Shown here piece by piece: positions 5,520 through 11,860 of a stretch of 20,495 bases of DNA. Source of the stretch: a virus. The stretch is from positions 1 through 20,495 of IMG/VR virus record IMGVR_UViG_3300024261_000186; one strand, 5' to 3'. The number at the start of each line of letters is the position of its first letter. Positions within the stretch are counted from its first letter, which is position 1. The notes beneath the pieces were generated by a model. That model searched no databases. It was not told the origin of the DNA and worked only from the letters and a program-made list of their open reading frames with translations. The position numbers and the translations under genes were made by a program.

Positions 5520-6166
5520 GTGTCCGCCTTCACGACAGACGAGCCGACGTTTCCGGCGGACCCTGTCGTGGTGCTGACGCCGGTGGAGAGAGGCCCAACT
5601 ACCACCCCTGGGTGTATGTGGGTCGAGATCGCGGTCCAGAGTGCATTGATCTCTGACCTAACCAGCGAGTCGAGGGCTACCTTGTCGGACGCGGATGAGC
5701 TCCCAAGCCGCACGTCACCGGTCCCGCGGTCGTAGAGCACCACGGCGCCGCTGGCGTAGGCCGCGGACGGCAGAGGGGATGCAGGGGCCTGCACGCCGGC
5801 CAAGAACACGGCATCGGTGATGTCGAATCGTCGTGGGTCGCGGGGCTCGGTCGCCTGGCTTGCCGTCGCCTTCCACTCGTCGATCGAGCGGTCGCAGATC
5901 AGAGCCAGGCCCCACTCGCCATCCTCGAGGTCCCAGGTCACGGAGCCGGCGAACTGAACGGGGACGTTGGAGACCGGCGGCCGAGCCCTGGCGACCGTCT
6001 CGCCGTCGTCGTTCTGGACACGGTAGGCGGTCGCGATCTGGATGGTGGCCGTCTGCGTGGCGCGGTCGTAGGACAGCACCCACGCCGGAGCGGCGACCCT
6101 GACGGCGCCACGGGCAGCCTTGGCGGCCTGGTCTTGCACCTGGGCCTGCGTGGTGTTGCGGCTCAT
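5516..6166 (-). CDS. Baseplate central spike, gpV/gp138-type
   Basis: I choose ATG 6166 (216 aa), which overlaps the hub stop as ATGA, over the in-frame start at 6229, which would run 64 bases into the hub gene. Residues 25-60 (APAWVLSYDRATQTATIQIA) form the OB-fold beginning seen in gp138/gpV N-terminal domains, including the FAGSVTWDLEDGEWGLALICDRSIDEW region where 'GD.gl.l..drsid.W' is characteristic. Near the C-terminus ISTHIHPGVVVGPLSTG carries an HIH motif; in P2 gpV-like spikes an HxH triplet in each subunit binds a metal ion at the trimer apex. The protein is therefore the probable trimeric membrane-piercing spike. Confidence 0.88.
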   Translation of the reverse strand: MSRNTTQAQVQDQAAKAARGAVRVAAPAWVLSYDRATQTATIQIATAYRVQNDDGETVARARPPVSNVPVQFAGSVTWDLEDGEWGLALICDRSIDEWKATASQATEPRDPRRFDITDAVFLAGVQAPASPLPSAAYASGAVVLYDRGTGDVRLGSSSASDKVALDSLVRSEINALWTAISTHIHPGVVVGPLSTGVSTTTGSAGNVGSSVVKADT

Positions 6167-6972
6167 AGCGTCGCCCCCACGGCTTCCACGTAGAACTCCG
6201 AGCCCCGGGAGTCGCCCCGGAATCGGCATTCGGTGCAGCGGTAGTCCCCGGACACGCTCTCGGAGGTCACGCGGAACGCCCGCCCGGGGCGCATGGAGGG
6301 GTCGATCAGGGCTCGGATCTCCACGCCCGAATCAGTCCTCGTGGGGCTGCCGATCATGCCGGTGGTAGGCGTGAACAGGATCGCCTCCTCGCCCGTGGTG
6401 GTCCCGGACGCCCAGATCTGGAGCGTGCCGTCCCGGATCGTCCACTGGCGCCCGGTCATGCCGCAGAGATCGTCCAGGATCCCCCGCGCGGTCCCGGACA
6501 GGGCGCGACCGTAGGGGAATCGCTCGTCCTCTCCGACGTCGTAGGTGCCCAGCGGCAGCCCGAGTTCGTCGGCGACAACCTGGAAGACCTGCGCCGCGGT
6601 CTGCTCGGCGGAGTAGCCCACGTCCAGGTATGTGCCCGTGTAGGCGCTCCGGCCGTCCTGGGCCTCGACCACCAGCACGCGGTCAGTGGACTCTCTGCGC
6701 TCGCTGACGCCGTCGGGGATGGGCTCCCCGTGGAAGATGAGCCGCGCCACGCCCTCGCTCGAGTAGCCGACCAGGAGCCGGATGACGGCCCCGTCCTCTT
6801 GCATCAGGGCGATGGTGTCCGAAGCGGCGCCCGTGATCTCGATCTTGGCGCTGTTCGGGCTCGAGCCGTCGTTCATCTGGACGTCGAACTTGACGCGCAG
6901 GGCGGACAGTTCCCGGCCCGTGTCACCCTCGGTGCCAAGCTGGACGGTCACGAGTCGGCCGAACTGGGTCAC
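6163..6972 (-). CDS. Baseplate hub protein (gp27/gpD-like)
   Basis: A 269-aa protein with GTG 6972 overlapping the preceding stop (GTGA). Features typical of phage hub proteins are visible: an N-terminal beta-barrel start (RVKFDVQMNDGSSPNSAKIEITG), a middle segment TDRVLVVEAQDGRSAYTGTY, then a LysM-like or linker helix (TAAQVFQVVADELGLPLG) and a C-terminal barrel ending with YRCTECRFRGDSRGSEFYVEAVG, where 'H.gD.rg..w.t...G' is common in hubs. It lies directly upstream of the spike gene, and hub and spike interact as trimers in all contractile systems. The length is short for a hub but normal for small myophages. The exact family was not confirmed. Confidence 0.82.
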   Translation of the reverse strand: MTQFGRLVTVQLGTEGDTGRELSALRVKFDVQMNDGSSPNSAKIEITGAASDTIALMQEDGAVIRLLVGYSSEGVARLIFHGEPIPDGVSERRESTDRVLVVEAQDGRSAYTGTYLDVGYSAEQTAAQVFQVVADELGLPLGTYDVGEDERFPYGRALSGTARGILDDLCGMTGRQWTIRDGTLQIWASGTTTGEEAILFTPTTGMIGSPTRTDSGVEIRALIDPSMRPGRAFRVTSESVSGDYRCTECRFRGDSRGSEFYVEAVGATL

Positions 6973-7322
6973 GTCGTCACCCGCAGCCCGAGATCGTCGG
7001 AGTCCTCGTCCGGGATCTCGCTCTCGGAGTAGTACAGGAGCCGTCCGTCTTCGGTGCCCAACTCCTCGCGCTGGCGCAGGTCGCCGAAGACCAGGAACGC
7101 CCCGGGCGGCTGGCTGGCCTGCAGCACGCCGACGAGTGGGTCGGAGCGCCCGGATAGGCGGCGACCCTTGGCGATCGGGGTCATGTCCTGCGTGTAGATG
7201 TCCATGTACCAGGCCTGCTGACGGGCTCGCCAGGTCAGGCGGACGCGGTAGCGCGTGTCGTCCATGGTGTGGGTGAAGATCGTAGACGGCTGACTGACGA
7301 ACGACGGGAGCTCACGGGGCAT
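6969..7322 (-). CDS. Small baseplate plug protein (Pam3 gp18/DUF6983-like)
   Basis: The 117-aa gene starts at ATG 7322, sharing one base with the upstream stop (TGATG). The much longer frame reaching 8147 is out-of-frame shadow of the Dit-like and tape measure genes. The product begins MPRELPSFVSQPS and contains MDDTRYRVRLTWRARQQAWYMDIYTQDMTPIAKG, a pattern I associate with the small 'plug' proteins found between Dit-like and hub genes in simple myophage baseplates (Pam3 gp18 group): an Y.l.l.W......W.ldi.d..g.pi..g.rl.. motif. It probably sits inside or around the hub channel. Family membership is judged from this motif and position only. Confidence 0.78.
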   Translation of the reverse strand: MPRELPSFVSQPSTIFTHTMDDTRYRVRLTWRARQQAWYMDIYTQDMTPIAKGRRLSGRSDPLVGVLQASQPPGAFLVFGDLRQREELGTEDGRLLYYSESEIPDEDSDDLGLRVTT

Positions 7323-7906
7323 CAGGAAGCCTCCTCTTGCTCGCTGCCGTAGATCAGCTGGTACAGCCACGACGACGCGGCCTCTTCCTCGGCCTCGCTC
7401 ATGTCCGGGGTGGCCCCGCTCTGCTCGCCTGCATCCACCTCGGACGCCAGCCCGTCGGCGGCCGTCTCGGCGGCCTGGGTGACTGGGATCGTGACGGTTT
7501 GCGCCTCGACCACCACCACCTCGCGGAATGCCAGCGAGAAGCGGAGCGAGCGGTAGGCGCCCCTCTCGTGGGACATGGAGACCAGCACGTAGCTGTCGAT
7601 CTCCTCCTCGGGATAGGCCAGGGTCAGCGACAGGCCCCAGCAGCCCTCCAGGAACTCGACAGCGGCGTCCTCGCGCTCCTTGCCGGTCGGCTGGTCGTAG
7701 GTCCTGCCCTCGAGCGGAGAGCGGGTCACGGTGGCCAAGGGGGTATCTCGCCCGGGCTCCCTGATCACGGTGTCGGAGATGGAGGTCCCGAGTTCGACGG
7801 GGTGATCCGTGGTACGCGCCCGCAAGTCGCGCGCGTACCTGGTGACCGCGTCGAAACTCCAGGACACGCCGTCGGAGCGGGTCACGACGAGGGGCGCGGT
7901 TGCCAT
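7322..7906 (-). CDS. Dit-like baseplate protein
   Basis: A 194-aa protein with ATG 7906 overlapping the tape measure stop (TAATG). Residues 10-75 (DGVSWSFDAVTRYARDLRARTTDHPVELGTSISDTVIREP) match the N-terminal signature of the Dit-like proteins of myophages ('T.HPVE.G..itDHvi..P'). The central part keeps the usual elements GKEREDAAVEFLEGCWG and LVSMSHERGAYRSLRFSLAFREV. The last about 45 residues are strongly acidic and low-complexity (SEAEEEAASSWLYQLIYGSEQEEAS), perhaps a disordered tail. In related phages this protein forms the ring between tube and hub. Its place directly after the tape measure and before the plug and hub supports this. Confidence 0.85.
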   Translation of the reverse strand: MATAPLVVTRSDGVSWSFDAVTRYARDLRARTTDHPVELGTSISDTVIREPGRDTPLATVTRSPLEGRTYDQPTGKEREDAAVEFLEGCWGLSLTLAYPEEEIDSYVLVSMSHERGAYRSLRFSLAFREVVVVEAQTVTIPVTQAAETAADGLASEVDAGEQSGATPDMSEAEEEAASSWLYQLIYGSEQEEAS

Positions 7907-9531
7907 TAGACCTCCGCTCCGGCCAGGGCTGCCACGGCGTCGCGGTTGCTACGTGCCAGGGCGTCCTCGATCTGCCTGGCGATATCGTCGGCGTCGGCTT
8001 GTCCGTTGACGGTGACGGAGACTTGGTTGCTAACCGCGGCGTTGCTGATCGCTGTGCTTGCCCCGGACATTGGCGCCACTGACGGCTCGTAGGTCCCGCC
8101 AGATACGAACCCGGTGAGGCCTTGGATGGCGTCCGTAACGGCACCAATCATCCCCGTCAGGCGGTCAAGCTCGCTCGTTAGATACCGCTCGATCAACTCT
8201 CCGACTTCCGGCAGGACGACCCCAAAGGCGGACAGGAACTCCTGCGCGGCCGACCACGCGCCGTCGAAAGCGATGACGACAGCGTCGAGCAGATCGATCA
8301 TGGCCTGCAGCATTTCCAGGGTCGCCTGGCCCTCACGAACGAGAGCTCCCATGATTCCGGCCGCGCCCTCGTGCTTCTCGATGAACTCACCGATCGCGCT
8401 GGAACCACCCTGCCACAGCACCACGAGATCCTGGTAGGCAAGCGCGAGCAGCACGATGACGCCAATCACCGCGGCCACAGCCGCAACCCAACCGCCCAAC
8501 GCGGCCCCGGACACGCCGACGATGGCGGCCAACGACTTGAACGCCTTGATCATGGACAGGATCGCCGACGTGGTCTTGTAGGCGACCACAGCGGACAGCG
8601 CGGTAGCCAACGCAGCGGCCGCGACCGCTGCAGCCTCGAACAGGAAGCCGACGGTGGCGATGACGTCGATCCGCTCCTCGAGGGCGACAAGGGCGTCGCG
8701 GATGGCGATGATGCCGCCCTCGATCTTCTTGGCCCACTTCTCCATCCGCTGGCGGATGATATCGCCGTTGGCCTTCGCCCAGTCGGAGAACCTGCCGAGC
8801 ATGTCGTTGAAGACCGGAAGCAGGCCCTCTCCGATCGTGTTGCGGAGGCCGACCAAGAATGCCTTGGCGTTGGTGAGTCCGTCCACGAACTCCTCTGACG
8901 CCGCTGCGCCCTCCACCGAGAGCACCAGGCCGAGGTCGTGCGCCTCCTGACGGTAGGCCCGCAGGGCATCTCCGCCCTCGTTCAGCAGCGGCAGAAGCTT
9001 GGCCCCGCCCTTGCCGAAAATGTCGTTGGCGAGAGCCATCTTGGTGGTCTCGTCCTCGAGGCCCTTCATCTCTTCTGCGATGGCCTCCAGGAAGCCCAGC
9101 TGCCCAAGCGACGAAGCCTCCTTCGCGCTGTCTTCATCGCCGAACAGGCGGGTCAGAGCGTCCGCGGCCGTCCCTCCGGTGGTGGCCAGCTCGTCCGTGC
9201 CGACGGCCAGGCGGCGCAGCGACGTCTCGACGTCCTGGATCGACGCCCCGGACCTGTCAGCAGCGAACGAGAGCTCTTGGAACTCTGCCGTGGTGACGCC
9301 AACGCGCTTGGACGCCTTGGCCGCCTCGTCTCCAGACACCGCTACGGCGTTGACCACGGCTGCAATGGACCCTGCAACCAGCGCGATCCCGCCAGCAAGG
9401 ACAGCCGCGGCCTGCGCCGCTGTCGCCATGCTGCTCTTGGCGTCGCCGATGGCACTGTCGAACTCGGAGACCGCCGCCGTGTCGGCGTCAACCCCGAGGG
9501 CGACCAGCAGCTCTCGGATCGTGGTCGCCAT
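7906..9531 (-). CDS. Tail tape measure protein
   Basis: The 541-aa gene begins at ATG 9531 immediately after the chaperone stop. The N-terminus (TIRELLVALGVDAD...VSEFDSAIGDAKSSM) is typical for phage tape measures of the 'l...lGvd.~~~~~f~~~i~~~~~' kind. An Ala/Val hydrophobic segment lies at residues 38-66 and a second larger one at about 290-370, ending IGVIVLLALAYQDLVVLW. This late segment is usual in these proteins and probably becomes membrane-associated during DNA ejection. Between them the sequence is mostly helical. At roughly 1.5 angstrom per residue this length implies a fairly short tail of the order of 80 nm (an estimate from the general rule). Conserved location after the chaperone pair supports the call. 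Confidence 0.93.
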   Translation of the reverse strand: MATTIRELLVALGVDADTAAVSEFDSAIGDAKSSMATAAQAAAVLAGGIALVAGSIAAVVNAVAVSGDEAAKASKRVGVTTAEFQELSFAADRSGASIQDVETSLRRLAVGTDELATTGGTAADALTRLFGDEDSAKEASSLGQLGFLEAIAEEMKGLEDETTKMALANDIFGKGGAKLLPLLNEGGDALRAYRQEAHDLGLVLSVEGAAASEEFVDGLTNAKAFLVGLRNTIGEGLLPVFNDMLGRFSDWAKANGDIIRQRMEKWAKKIEGGIIAIRDALVALEERIDVIATVGFLFEAAAVAAAALATALSAVVAYKTTSAILSMIKAFKSLAAIVGVSGAALGGWVAAVAAVIGVIVLLALAYQDLVVLWQGGSSAIGEFIEKHEGAAGIMGALVREGQATLEMLQAMIDLLDAVVIAFDGAWSAAQEFLSAFGVVLPEVGELIERYLTSELDRLTGMIGAVTDAIQGLTGFVSGGTYEPSVAPMSGASTAISNAAVSNQVSVTVNGQADADDIARQIEDALARSNRDAVAALAGAEV

Positions 9532-9717
9532 CTACATGCGCCCCTGCTGCCGACGGGCAGCGGCTTCGCGCTTGATCTTGTCCCGCTCCAGCTTGTGGAG
9601 CGCGTCCATGGCGTCCTGGGCTACGTGGGCTTCGTAGACGTCGCCGAACCCGAGCTGGCGGACGGCAAGCATCCGCCCCGGGTCAACGCGTCCGGAGCCG
9701 TCCACGGAAAGGCGCAT
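9532..9717 (-). CDS. Second tail assembly chaperone frame (gpGT-like T part)
   Basis: This short frame can start independently at ATG 9717, twelve bases after the first chaperone's stop, giving 61 aa (MRLSVDGSGRVDPGRM...RREAAARRQQGRM), rich in charged helix-forming residues at the C-terminus. The same frame is open upstream to beyond the slippery site at 9822-9828, so it is more likely expressed as a -1 frameshift extension of the first chaperone, as in lambda gpG/gpGT. In that case the fused product is about 248 aa. The T part of such proteins binds tube subunits and recruits them to the tape measure (established for lambda). Independent initiation at 9717 cannot be excluded; no clear ribosome binding site precedes it. 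Confidence 0.72.
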   Translation of the reverse strand: MRLSVDGSGRVDPGRMLAVRQLGFGDVYEAHVAQDAMDALHKLERDKIKREAAARRQQGRM

Positions 9718-9728
9718 GGTCCACCAGC

Positions 9729-10277
9729 TCACTCCGTCGGCGGCCGCCTGTCGGGTGACAGAGCGGCCTTGGCCTTGGTTGTTGCTGCTCGGACGAGGGC
9801 GCCGAAGCCACCCAGCGGCCCGAAAAAACGGTTGTACTGCCCCACCTTCCACACGGCGGCCACGAGCTCGCCGTAGTTGCGCTGGTAGGCGGTGTCGAAT
9901 GCCACGTCCCGGGCCAGAGGCTTGCCGTCGCGCTCGGCATGGCGCAGCACGTCGCGCACCAGAGGCAGGTCGATCGCCTCGATGGCACGCCGCATCGCTG
10001 GCCCGCTGCTGGTGAAGTCCAGCCCGGCCAGGTTGGCCATGACCTCGGGATCGTCCATGATGGACTCGAGGTCGAAGCTGCCATCGGTCTTGGCTGCGCG
10101 CTTGAGGGCGGCAGGGACGGTCTTGACGAGCACGGACAACGCCGTGCCGGCCAGGGGGTCGATAACCGCTGCGGCGATGCGGGAGCAGACGCCGAAGCCT
10201 TCGGTCGGGTTGTGAGCCGCCACGCGGTAGCTGTGCTGCTTGCCGTCGGCGTCCTCGAGTGTGAACTGATGGAACAT
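9729..10277 (-). CDS. Tail assembly chaperone (gpG-like), 182 aa
   Basis: The gene starts at ATG 10277 with GAGAGGA about nine bases upstream and a 29-base gap to the tube gene. The 182-aa product has no recognisable catalytic motif; it is mostly helical (residues 28-62 and 95-145). It lies between tail tube and tape measure, the invariant position of tail assembly chaperones. Codons 150-152 are CGT TTT TTC, forming the -1 slippery heptamer T_TTT_TTC at 9828-9822. A -1 shift there leads into the open frame ending at 9532. The chaperone assignment rests mainly on gene order plus the frameshift architecture; the family itself was not recognised by sequence. Confidence 0.82.
   Translation of the reverse strand: MFHQFTLEDADGKQHSYRVAAHNPTEGFGVCSRIAAAVIDPLAGTALSVLVKTVPAALKRAAKTDGSFDLESIMDDPEVMANLAGLDFTSSGPAMRRAIEAIDLPLVRDVLRHAERDGKPLARDVAFDTAYQRNYGELVAAVWKVGQYNRFFGPLGGFGALVRAATTKAKAALSPDRRPPTE
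9822..9828 (-). promoter_or_regulatory. Probable -1 programmed ribosomal frameshift site T_TTT_TTC
   Basis: On the minus strand the zero-frame codons CGT TTT TTC GGG contain the heptamer T TTT TTC, which satisfies the X_XXY_YYZ rule. A shift of -1 changes reading to the frame of the 9532-9717 gene, which has no stop between here and its end. The expected product has 152 residues from the first frame and 96 from the second. Immediately downstream GGGCCG (from 9821) can pair with CGGCGCCC about 11 bases later, with one bulged G, a possible stimulatory hairpin. The frame arithmetic is exact; use of the site is inferred from the conserved behaviour of tail chaperone genes. Confidence 0.72.
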
Positions 10278-10306: not shown

Positions 10307-10756
10307 CTACAGAGCGGTCGCCAGGGAAACGGTCGGGTCTGGGAGCAGCACGCGGAACTCGACGCCGTCGCGCCCAGAGCCCATGCTGACGTCAGGGCGG
10401 GAGATGATGATCGCGTGGTCGCTCTCCCAGGTGTCGCCGTTGCTCGGGTCGGTGAGACGGAAGGCACGGGCCGTCAAGGCGCCGCCCTCTTCCACCTCGG
10501 TCCGCTGCTCGGCGCGGATCTCGGCCAGGTACTTGTACCCGGTGGACTCCGGATGCAGCGTCATGGTGACGATGTGCCGGTTGTCGCTGGAGACGTTGAG
10601 CACGACCGCGGAGCCGTCCACGGAGACCTCGTGCTCATCGTCGGCGGTGACCGGCGAGACGGTGACGATGGTGTCACCGGAAAAGCCCTGGATGCGGTAG
10701 GGGGAGAGGAAGACCTGGACGGCCTTCGGGGCATAGGCGCGGGTGGTGTCGGCCAT
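10307..10756 (-). CDS. Tail tube protein, DUF3277 type
   Basis: A 149-aa protein starting at ATG 10756, nine bases after the sheath stop. It opens with YAPKAVQVFLSPYRIQGFSGDTIVTVSP, and later has VSSDNRHIVTMTLHPESTGYKYLAEI, both characteristic of DUF3277-type myophage tube proteins ('y.p..v.v.~~G~~i~Gf~dg~~i~v', 'n.~~~it~tL~~tS~~n~~L'). Length is normal for a tube subunit. Position directly after the sheath gene is diagnostic. The product polymerises as hexameric rings inside the sheath and forms the DNA conduit (family knowledge). No odd features. Confidence 0.9.
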   Translation of the reverse strand: MADTTRAYAPKAVQVFLSPYRIQGFSGDTIVTVSPVTADDEHEVSVDGSAVVLNVSSDNRHIVTMTLHPESTGYKYLAEIRAEQRTEVEEGGALTARAFRLTDPSNGDTWESDHAIIISRPDVSMGSGRDGVEFRVLLPDPTVSLATAL

Positions 10757-10765
10757 GGGTCACGC

Positions 10766-11860
10766 TCACACGATGGCGGTGGTGGAAAGGTTGACGGTGA
10801 CGTCGATCGCGATGGCGCCGACGACGTTCTGGGCGCCGACGGTGAACCGGAGCTGCTGGGCAGTCCTGTCCGCGGCCGTGATGGTCTCGGGCGTGATGAC
10901 GACTTGGCCCTTCTCGAAGTGGCCAGCGGTCACGCCGGTCAAGGCGACCTTGCCGATGGTGCCCGCCACGCGGTTCTGGCCGTCGGCGTTCACGCCCAGC
11001 TTCTCGCCGTTGGCGGCGAGGGTGGCGTTCAGGTCTGCGAGCCCCTCGTTCAGCCGGGTCTCGAACCAATCGGCGGTGATGATCTGGTCGAATGCGCGGC
11101 TGTTGAGGTTGCGCCCCGGGTCGCAGTAGGCGTCGTAGATCGTGCCCATGGGAAGCAGGGTGTTCCCGTTGTTGGTGCGGGCGAATTCCTTCTGGGCCTG
11201 GGTCGGCGTGTCAGCGGTGAAGCTGTAGACCTCGGCCACGGGGCTGTTCCATGGGACGGACTTGTCGTCAGGGCTGCGAGCCAGACGGTTTCCGGCCAGC
11301 CCCTCGGCGCGTGGGGCGGCGTCCGTGCCGTGGTAGACGACGAAGACGCGCTCCTTGTCGTCGATGGTGGAGTAGCCGGCCGGCACGCCGCCGGTCGTCA
11401 GCCAGTCGGCGTCGGCGCTCTGGATGACCGTCACGAACTTGGAACCAGCGGCTTCCTGGGTGTCGATCCATCCGGAGAGGACGACGTGGTCGGCCGCGGT
11501 GCGGTCCTCGATGCAGATGCAGTAGAAGTCGGAGTTGTCCGCGAGAGCCGCGGTGAGGGCGTCGGCGATGGTGTCGCCACCCGCGTCGTCCCACTCCGCG
11601 ACCAGCAGAGAAGCGGGGCGCGGGGACTGCCCGAAGATCTCGGTGATGGCGGCCAGGGTCCAGGCGTTGATCTCGCCAGCGGCCAGGTCCGCCTGAGCGG
11701 TCACGACGCTGGTATACTCCTTGGACACGACTGCGCCCAAGGTGATGTCCTTGCCGACCAACAGGGGCCGGAAGGTGGCGCCGCCCGTGGAGAGCACGGC
11801 CAGGTTGACCGTGATGGAGATGCGGTCGTCGTGGGTCGAGGGGTCGAGGTACGGGCTCAT
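10766..11860 (-). CDS. Contractile tail sheath protein, DUF3383 type
   Basis: The 364-aa gene begins at ATG 11860, seven bases after the terminator stop. The N-terminus (SITVNLAVLSTGGATFRPLLVGKD) and the C-terminal region (FDQIITADWFETRLNEGLADLNATLAANGEKLGVNADGQNRVAGTIGKVALTGV) match the DUF3383 sheath group, in which 'q.i...WF..R...~~~~l~~~~~~~~kip~t~~G' is a signature. SPDDKSVPWNSPVAEVYSF lies in the middle. Presence of a sheath shows the virion is a myovirus. The protein assembles around the tube and contracts upon baseplate switching. Its C-terminus is somewhat shorter than some DUF3383 sheaths but retains the expected end strands (AIAIDVTVNLSTTAIV). Confidence 0.92.
   Translation of the reverse strand: MSPYLDPSTHDDRISITVNLAVLSTGGATFRPLLVGKDITLGAVVSKEYTSVVTAQADLAAGEINAWTLAAITEIFGQSPRPASLLVAEWDDAGGDTIADALTAALADNSDFYCICIEDRTAADHVVLSGWIDTQEAAGSKFVTVIQSADADWLTTGGVPAGYSTIDDKERVFVVYHGTDAAPRAEGLAGNRLARSPDDKSVPWNSPVAEVYSFTADTPTQAQKEFARTNNGNTLLPMGTIYDAYCDPGRNLNSRAFDQIITADWFETRLNEGLADLNATLAANGEKLGVNADGQNRVAGTIGKVALTGVTAGHFEKGQVVITPETITAADRTAQQLRFTVGAQNVVGAIAIDVTVNLSTTAIV

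Follow-up and report, generated by a model that had tools for sequence, protein, structure and literature searches.

A candidate frameshift signal ahead of the tape measure gene

Does the gene pair that lies between the tail tube and tape measure genes of this virus encode two proteins, or one protein in two forms? The initial annotation of the window (the whole stretch of DNA analysed here, a 20.5-kb virus record) read the pair as shifting frame like tail chaperone genes, although its products belonged to no recognised family. That reading is supported by a conserved heptamer and −1 frame and by weak profile and fold matches, and we put a probability of roughly 0.92 on the gene at positions 10277–9532 encoding a tail assembly chaperone in two forms via a −1 frameshift. 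The features of the locus are collected in Table 1.

Table 1 Features of the putative chaperone locus and its neighbours in the window.
Feature	Position	Strand	Evidence
Slippery heptamer T_TTT_TTC (zero frame CGT TTT TTC)	9822..9828	-	Sequence; position matched in three independent relatives
Shine-Dalgarno-like GGAAGGTG, candidate stimulator	9843..9850	-	Predicted anti-SD pairing −10.0 kcal/mol; ~14 nt upstream of heptamer
Zero-frame ORF, ATG start, 182 aa, putative G-like short form of tail assembly chaperone	9729..10277	-	ORF; Pfam TAC_15 E 0.0037, sub-cut-off; relatives 69/68/33–38% identical
−1 frame extension, putatively T-like, 96 codons + stop (9532–9534)	9532..9822	-	Alignments; codon-position pattern of changes past zero-frame stop
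Tape measure protein gene, starts on base next to −1 frame stop	7906..9531	-	PHROG tape measure families including phrog_8125, E down to 1.2e-36
Probable tail tube gene	10307..10756	-	phrog_280 (virion structural protein) E 9e-16; gene-order slot of XM1 gp7, tail tube
Tail sheath gene	10766..11860	-	phrog_205 tail sheath E 4e-26
Pam3 gp18-like plug gene	6969–7325
E217 gp41-like hub gene	6163–6972

The heptamer lies on the minus strand in the phase that had been claimed for it, and translation bears out the two predicted products: with the last C of the heptamer read again, the −1 frame begins CGG GCC GCT GGG TGG CTT (RAAGWL...) and runs without a stop to 9532, giving a fusion of 152 + 96 = 248 aa, whilst the unshifted protein continues for 30 codons beyond the slip site. 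TTTTTTC occurs once in the whole window, against 0.09 copies expected by chance, and amongst the 22 window genes scanned T_TTT_TTC is the sole in-frame X_XXY_YYZ heptamer with an A/T second triplet. U_UUU_UUC (H_HH.U_UU.Y class) is one of the efficient shift motifs measured in E. coli, where it shifts at >0.1% without stimulators, and it is employed by IS elements (PMC4066793). The openness of the −1 frame was discarded as weak evidence: the window is 68% G+C, on account of which the −1 frames of its other genes are often open, with 52% of 96-codon −1 stretches in those genes containing no stop.

Conservation of the signal and of both frames

We regard conservation, and not the open frame, as the decisive evidence for the predicted signal. 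A first search of IMG/VR returned four contigs, three of them essentially the same virus and the fourth (L005) 69% identical; contigs L013–L015 were recovered by a search with the −1 frame alignment, and L037 by a further alignment search. Including the window, the relatives fall into four lineages; the proteins of two of the other three differ from those of the window by only ~30%, and L037 alone is truly distant. In the L016/L005 lineage the zero-frame protein is 69% identical to that of the window and the identical heptamer falls on the matching codons of the alignment; the −1 frame of L005 runs for 92 codons (65% identity). The L013/L036 lineage (68% identity in the zero frame) likewise keeps T_TTT_TTC, and L013–L015 have 98 open −1 codons at 74% identity. 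In L037, where only 33–38% of zero-frame residues are shared, TTT TTC lies within the aligned NGFF/NRFF codons, and the homologous −1 frame extends over 84 codons to the start of the tape measure gene. The comparison proposed with the initial annotation, of heptamer and open −1 frame amongst homologues, thus finds both retained down to ~33% identity. TTT is rare amongst phenylalanine codons in every one of these genomes (8/156 in the window; 1/48, 5/58 and 6/50 in the relatives), so the repeated retention of TTT TTC is not a matter of codon habit.

Two patterns of nucleotide change bear on the second frame. Past the zero-frame stop, change is heaviest at the third positions of the −1 frame in each of the three close pairs, and significantly so in two of them, which indicates that the −1 frame is protein-coding. 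Of the conserved codons, 3 of 29 differ synonymously within the 12-codon stretch past the slip site, whereas 45 of 123 do so upstream of it (Fisher p 0.007, the sequence pairs being non-independent); this suppression is as expected if two frames or a signal just past the site were under selection.

The most serious rival is that the pair consists of two separate genes, the second frame being translated from an internal start such as the ATG at −1 codon 36 (position 9717), just past the zero-frame stop, with the heptamer incidental. The window and its two close relatives all have this ATG, and a purine-rich stretch (GGAGTGAGCTGGTGG in the window) precedes it; in the distant L037, however, the aligned residue is Trp, and every one of the four lineages conserves ten −1 residues upstream of codon 36 (G4 W5 R10 V22 A26 A27 D29 G30 V31 W33). 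The Trp in L037 and these upstream residues make a fusion far likelier than two genes. A separate gene would also leave both the residues and the heptamer, conserved in all lineages, unexplained. L037 carries a different ATG and a GTG just past its own zero-frame stop. A start of its own for the second frame in all relatives had been named as one finding that would speak against the frameshift; no start codon stands at a common position in all of them, and we rejected an independent start as it is not kept in L037. We consider the two-gene explanation improbable, and at most a weak internal start may operate besides the frameshift.

Alternatively, it might be RNA polymerase, and not the ribosome, that slips on the T6 run to give the fusion. 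The transcript does contain a run of six U, but this is a short run for a polymerase to slip on, and it stands in exactly the X_XXY_YYZ phase that ribosomes need, as in P2 E/E', which makes this very improbable indeed. That a single gene was broken because its T run was mis-sequenced or misassembled, homopolymers being error-prone, has next to no chance of being correct and is largely refuted, as the six T and the C are identical across contigs from several metagenomes and four divergent lineages, and the 30 zero-frame codons past the site can be aligned, three lineages sharing the position of the stop. The programmed −1 frameshift in a diverged tail assembly chaperone is, judged from these comparisons of sequence, very probably genuine.

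Probable identity as a tail assembly chaperone

The position between the tail tube and tape measure genes, found in both the window and L037, is the standard slot for a tail assembly chaperone, and both share the order sheath, tube, chaperone, tape measure. Around the gene pair the window encodes a tail terminator, sheath, probable tube, the pair itself, tape measure, a Dit-like protein, the Pam3 gp18-like plug, the E217 gp41-like hub and Baseplate_J, a set of genes that resembles the structural block of small contractile-tailed phages of the XM1/Pam3 type; the plug and hub in particular suggest a contractile phage of minimal make-up. No close relative turned up in the phage collection, where the chaperone proteins and the sheath were used as queries without a match, and scans of GTDB genomes with the zero-frame and −1 frame alignments gave no confirmed relative.

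Searching tail chaperone profiles, as had been proposed, gave a sub-cut-off TAC_15 match that, together with weak fold matches, points to tail assembly chaperones. Pfam PF21822 (Phage_TAC_15) is the best profile match for three of the four members (the window, L016 and L037) at 18.2–18.7 bits (E 0.0026–0.0037), and all members tested score less than the curated 22-bit cut-off; membership of PF21822 was therefore not assigned. TAC_15 also gives weak matches in unrelated control genomes, and for this reason we treat the match as supporting evidence only. No family profile reached its cut-off with the window protein, and neither product had a useful match in NCBIfam or PHROGs.

An AlphaFold model of moderate quality (pLDDT 71.6), built on a five-sequence alignment, was compared with known and predicted structures. 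Against viral models, the best 20 Foldseek matches include two proteins named tape measure chaperone (probability 0.97, E ~0.04), with one tail assembly chaperone and one 'pre-tape measure frameshift protein G' also among them. In VIA-align the third-ranked structure was the HK97 tail assembly chaperone (2ob9), a weak match with Z 3.7 over 88 residues at an rmsd of 4.9. Foldseek against the PDB found nothing significant, the zero-frame profile matched no sequence of a solved structure, and a model of the −1 extension by itself gave no fold match. We would call the gene pair a putative tail assembly chaperone on the strength of its position, the signal and weak homology.

Possible stimulators of the shift

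Downstream stimulatory RNA structures are frequent, though not required, in G/GT-type frameshifts. The initial annotation had suggested a possible bulged hairpin, GGGCCG/CGGCGCCC, right after the slip site, for which we found no support: its stability is no better than that of shuffled sequence and the pairing is not conserved, so that we rejected it. Folding of the window downstream of the slip site gave z −0.25 (32 nt) and z +1.11 (62 nt) relative to shuffles, and L013 is the only member with a mild excess of stability (z −1.6, 62 nt). Predicted downstream pairings vary among the relatives, the GCCC arm of the proposed hairpin is broken in L016 (GCAC), and the stem would begin without a spacer after the slip site. 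The first 25 bases past the site are nearly invariant in close relatives.

Upstream of the heptamer, by ~14–15 nt, a GGRAGGT element is present in all four lineages (window, L016, L013 and L037). Its predicted anti-SD pairing in the three relatives is −6.7, −10.0 and −11.4 kcal/mol, strengths reached by 11.8, 1.8 and 0.6% of background positions, respectively, and by 1.8% in the window. The element overlaps conserved Trp-Lys/Glu-Val codons, and as selection on the protein may explain its retention it is a candidate stimulator only, albeit one that appears a better candidate than the downstream hairpin. We offer as a tentative possibility, one that we think has the odds against it, that the pair represents a new chaperone family in minimal contractile phages whose U_UUU_UUC shift is aided by GGRAGGT (~14 nt upstream) rather than by a hairpin.

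Proposed mechanism and comparison with known systems

The probable frameshift at T_TTT_TTC is a new example of a well-known mechanism and is ordinary in kind. In lambda, a short protein G and a −1 frameshifted long protein GT act as chaperones on the tape measure protein, the G part binding the tape measure and the T part the tube subunit, and neither form is found in the virion (PMC5009743). The gpG:gpGT ratio matters; it is ~30:1 in lambda, and frameshifting is 2- to 3-fold higher in relatives of P2 (PMC5009743). The window resembles lambda in its predicted combination of a short and a −1 frameshifted long form, and differs in that the lambda tail is non-contractile, its heptamer is a different one and there is no detectable sequence relation. 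The lambda G/GT heptamer is G_GGA_AAG.

We infer that the shift occurs in the window gene, and that its two forms would be made at some ratio and serve as chaperones. Most ribosomes would stay in the zero frame and produce the 182-residue protein, whilst a minority would slip back one base at U_UUU_UUC and produce the 248-residue fusion. By analogy with lambda gpG/gpGT, the shared N-terminal part may coat the tape measure protein, and the tail encoded in the −1 frame may attach to the tail tube subunit, so that tube protein is delivered to the tape measure.

P2 E/E+E' resembles the window in its contractile tail, in the gene order sheath, tube, E/E', tape measure, and in its slip site GGT TTT TTG (T_TTT_TTG), with a −1 fusion that ends at the tape measure gene. 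It differs in that its heptamer ends in G where that of the window ends in C, and in that its zero frame is 91 aa long with the shift ~6 codons before the stop, compared with 30 codons in the window; a search of the phage collection with the window protein gave no sequence match.

Vibrio phage XM1, a minimal contractile phage, has the order tube, a 135-aa open-reading frame with T_TTT_TTG (CCT TTT TTG) near its end, a 77-aa −1 extension, and tape measure. It differs from the window in that its best Pfam match is TAC_9 (2e-4, sub-cut-off) and not TAC_15, and in that the genes concerned, 2_8 and 2_9, are annotated as two hypothetical proteins.

Whilst the mechanism itself is textbook, the locus yields a corrected gene model (the 248-aa fusion) and a name for a gene pair missed by current profile libraries, and a search for conserved slip sites ahead of tape measure genes can in this way reveal diverged chaperones in metagenomic phages.

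Similar sites were seen in other phages. In XM1 (MT720689.1, 3198–3766), T_TTT_TTG and the open −1 frame link genes 2_8 and 2_9 just ahead of the tape measure gene. When the text of the paper on the XM1 structure (PMC10457771) was searched, neither a chaperone nor a frameshift turned up. No report of such heptamers in phage tail genes was found in open-access text, a limited scope that says little. In Paracoccus phage Shpa (NC_041868.1, 3184–3815), gp13 has an A_AAA_AAG close to its end that leads into an open −1 frame spanning gp14; the tape measure gene follows directly, and gp13 and gp14 are annotated as separate genes. Two further phages have an in-frame heptamer near the end of the pre-tape-measure open-reading frame that leads into an open −1 frame, annotated unjoined: A_AAA_AAC in Microcystis phage Mae-JY22 (2930–3726; ~110 codons) and G_GGA_AAC in Butyrivibrio phage Arawn (2844–3418; ~70 codons).
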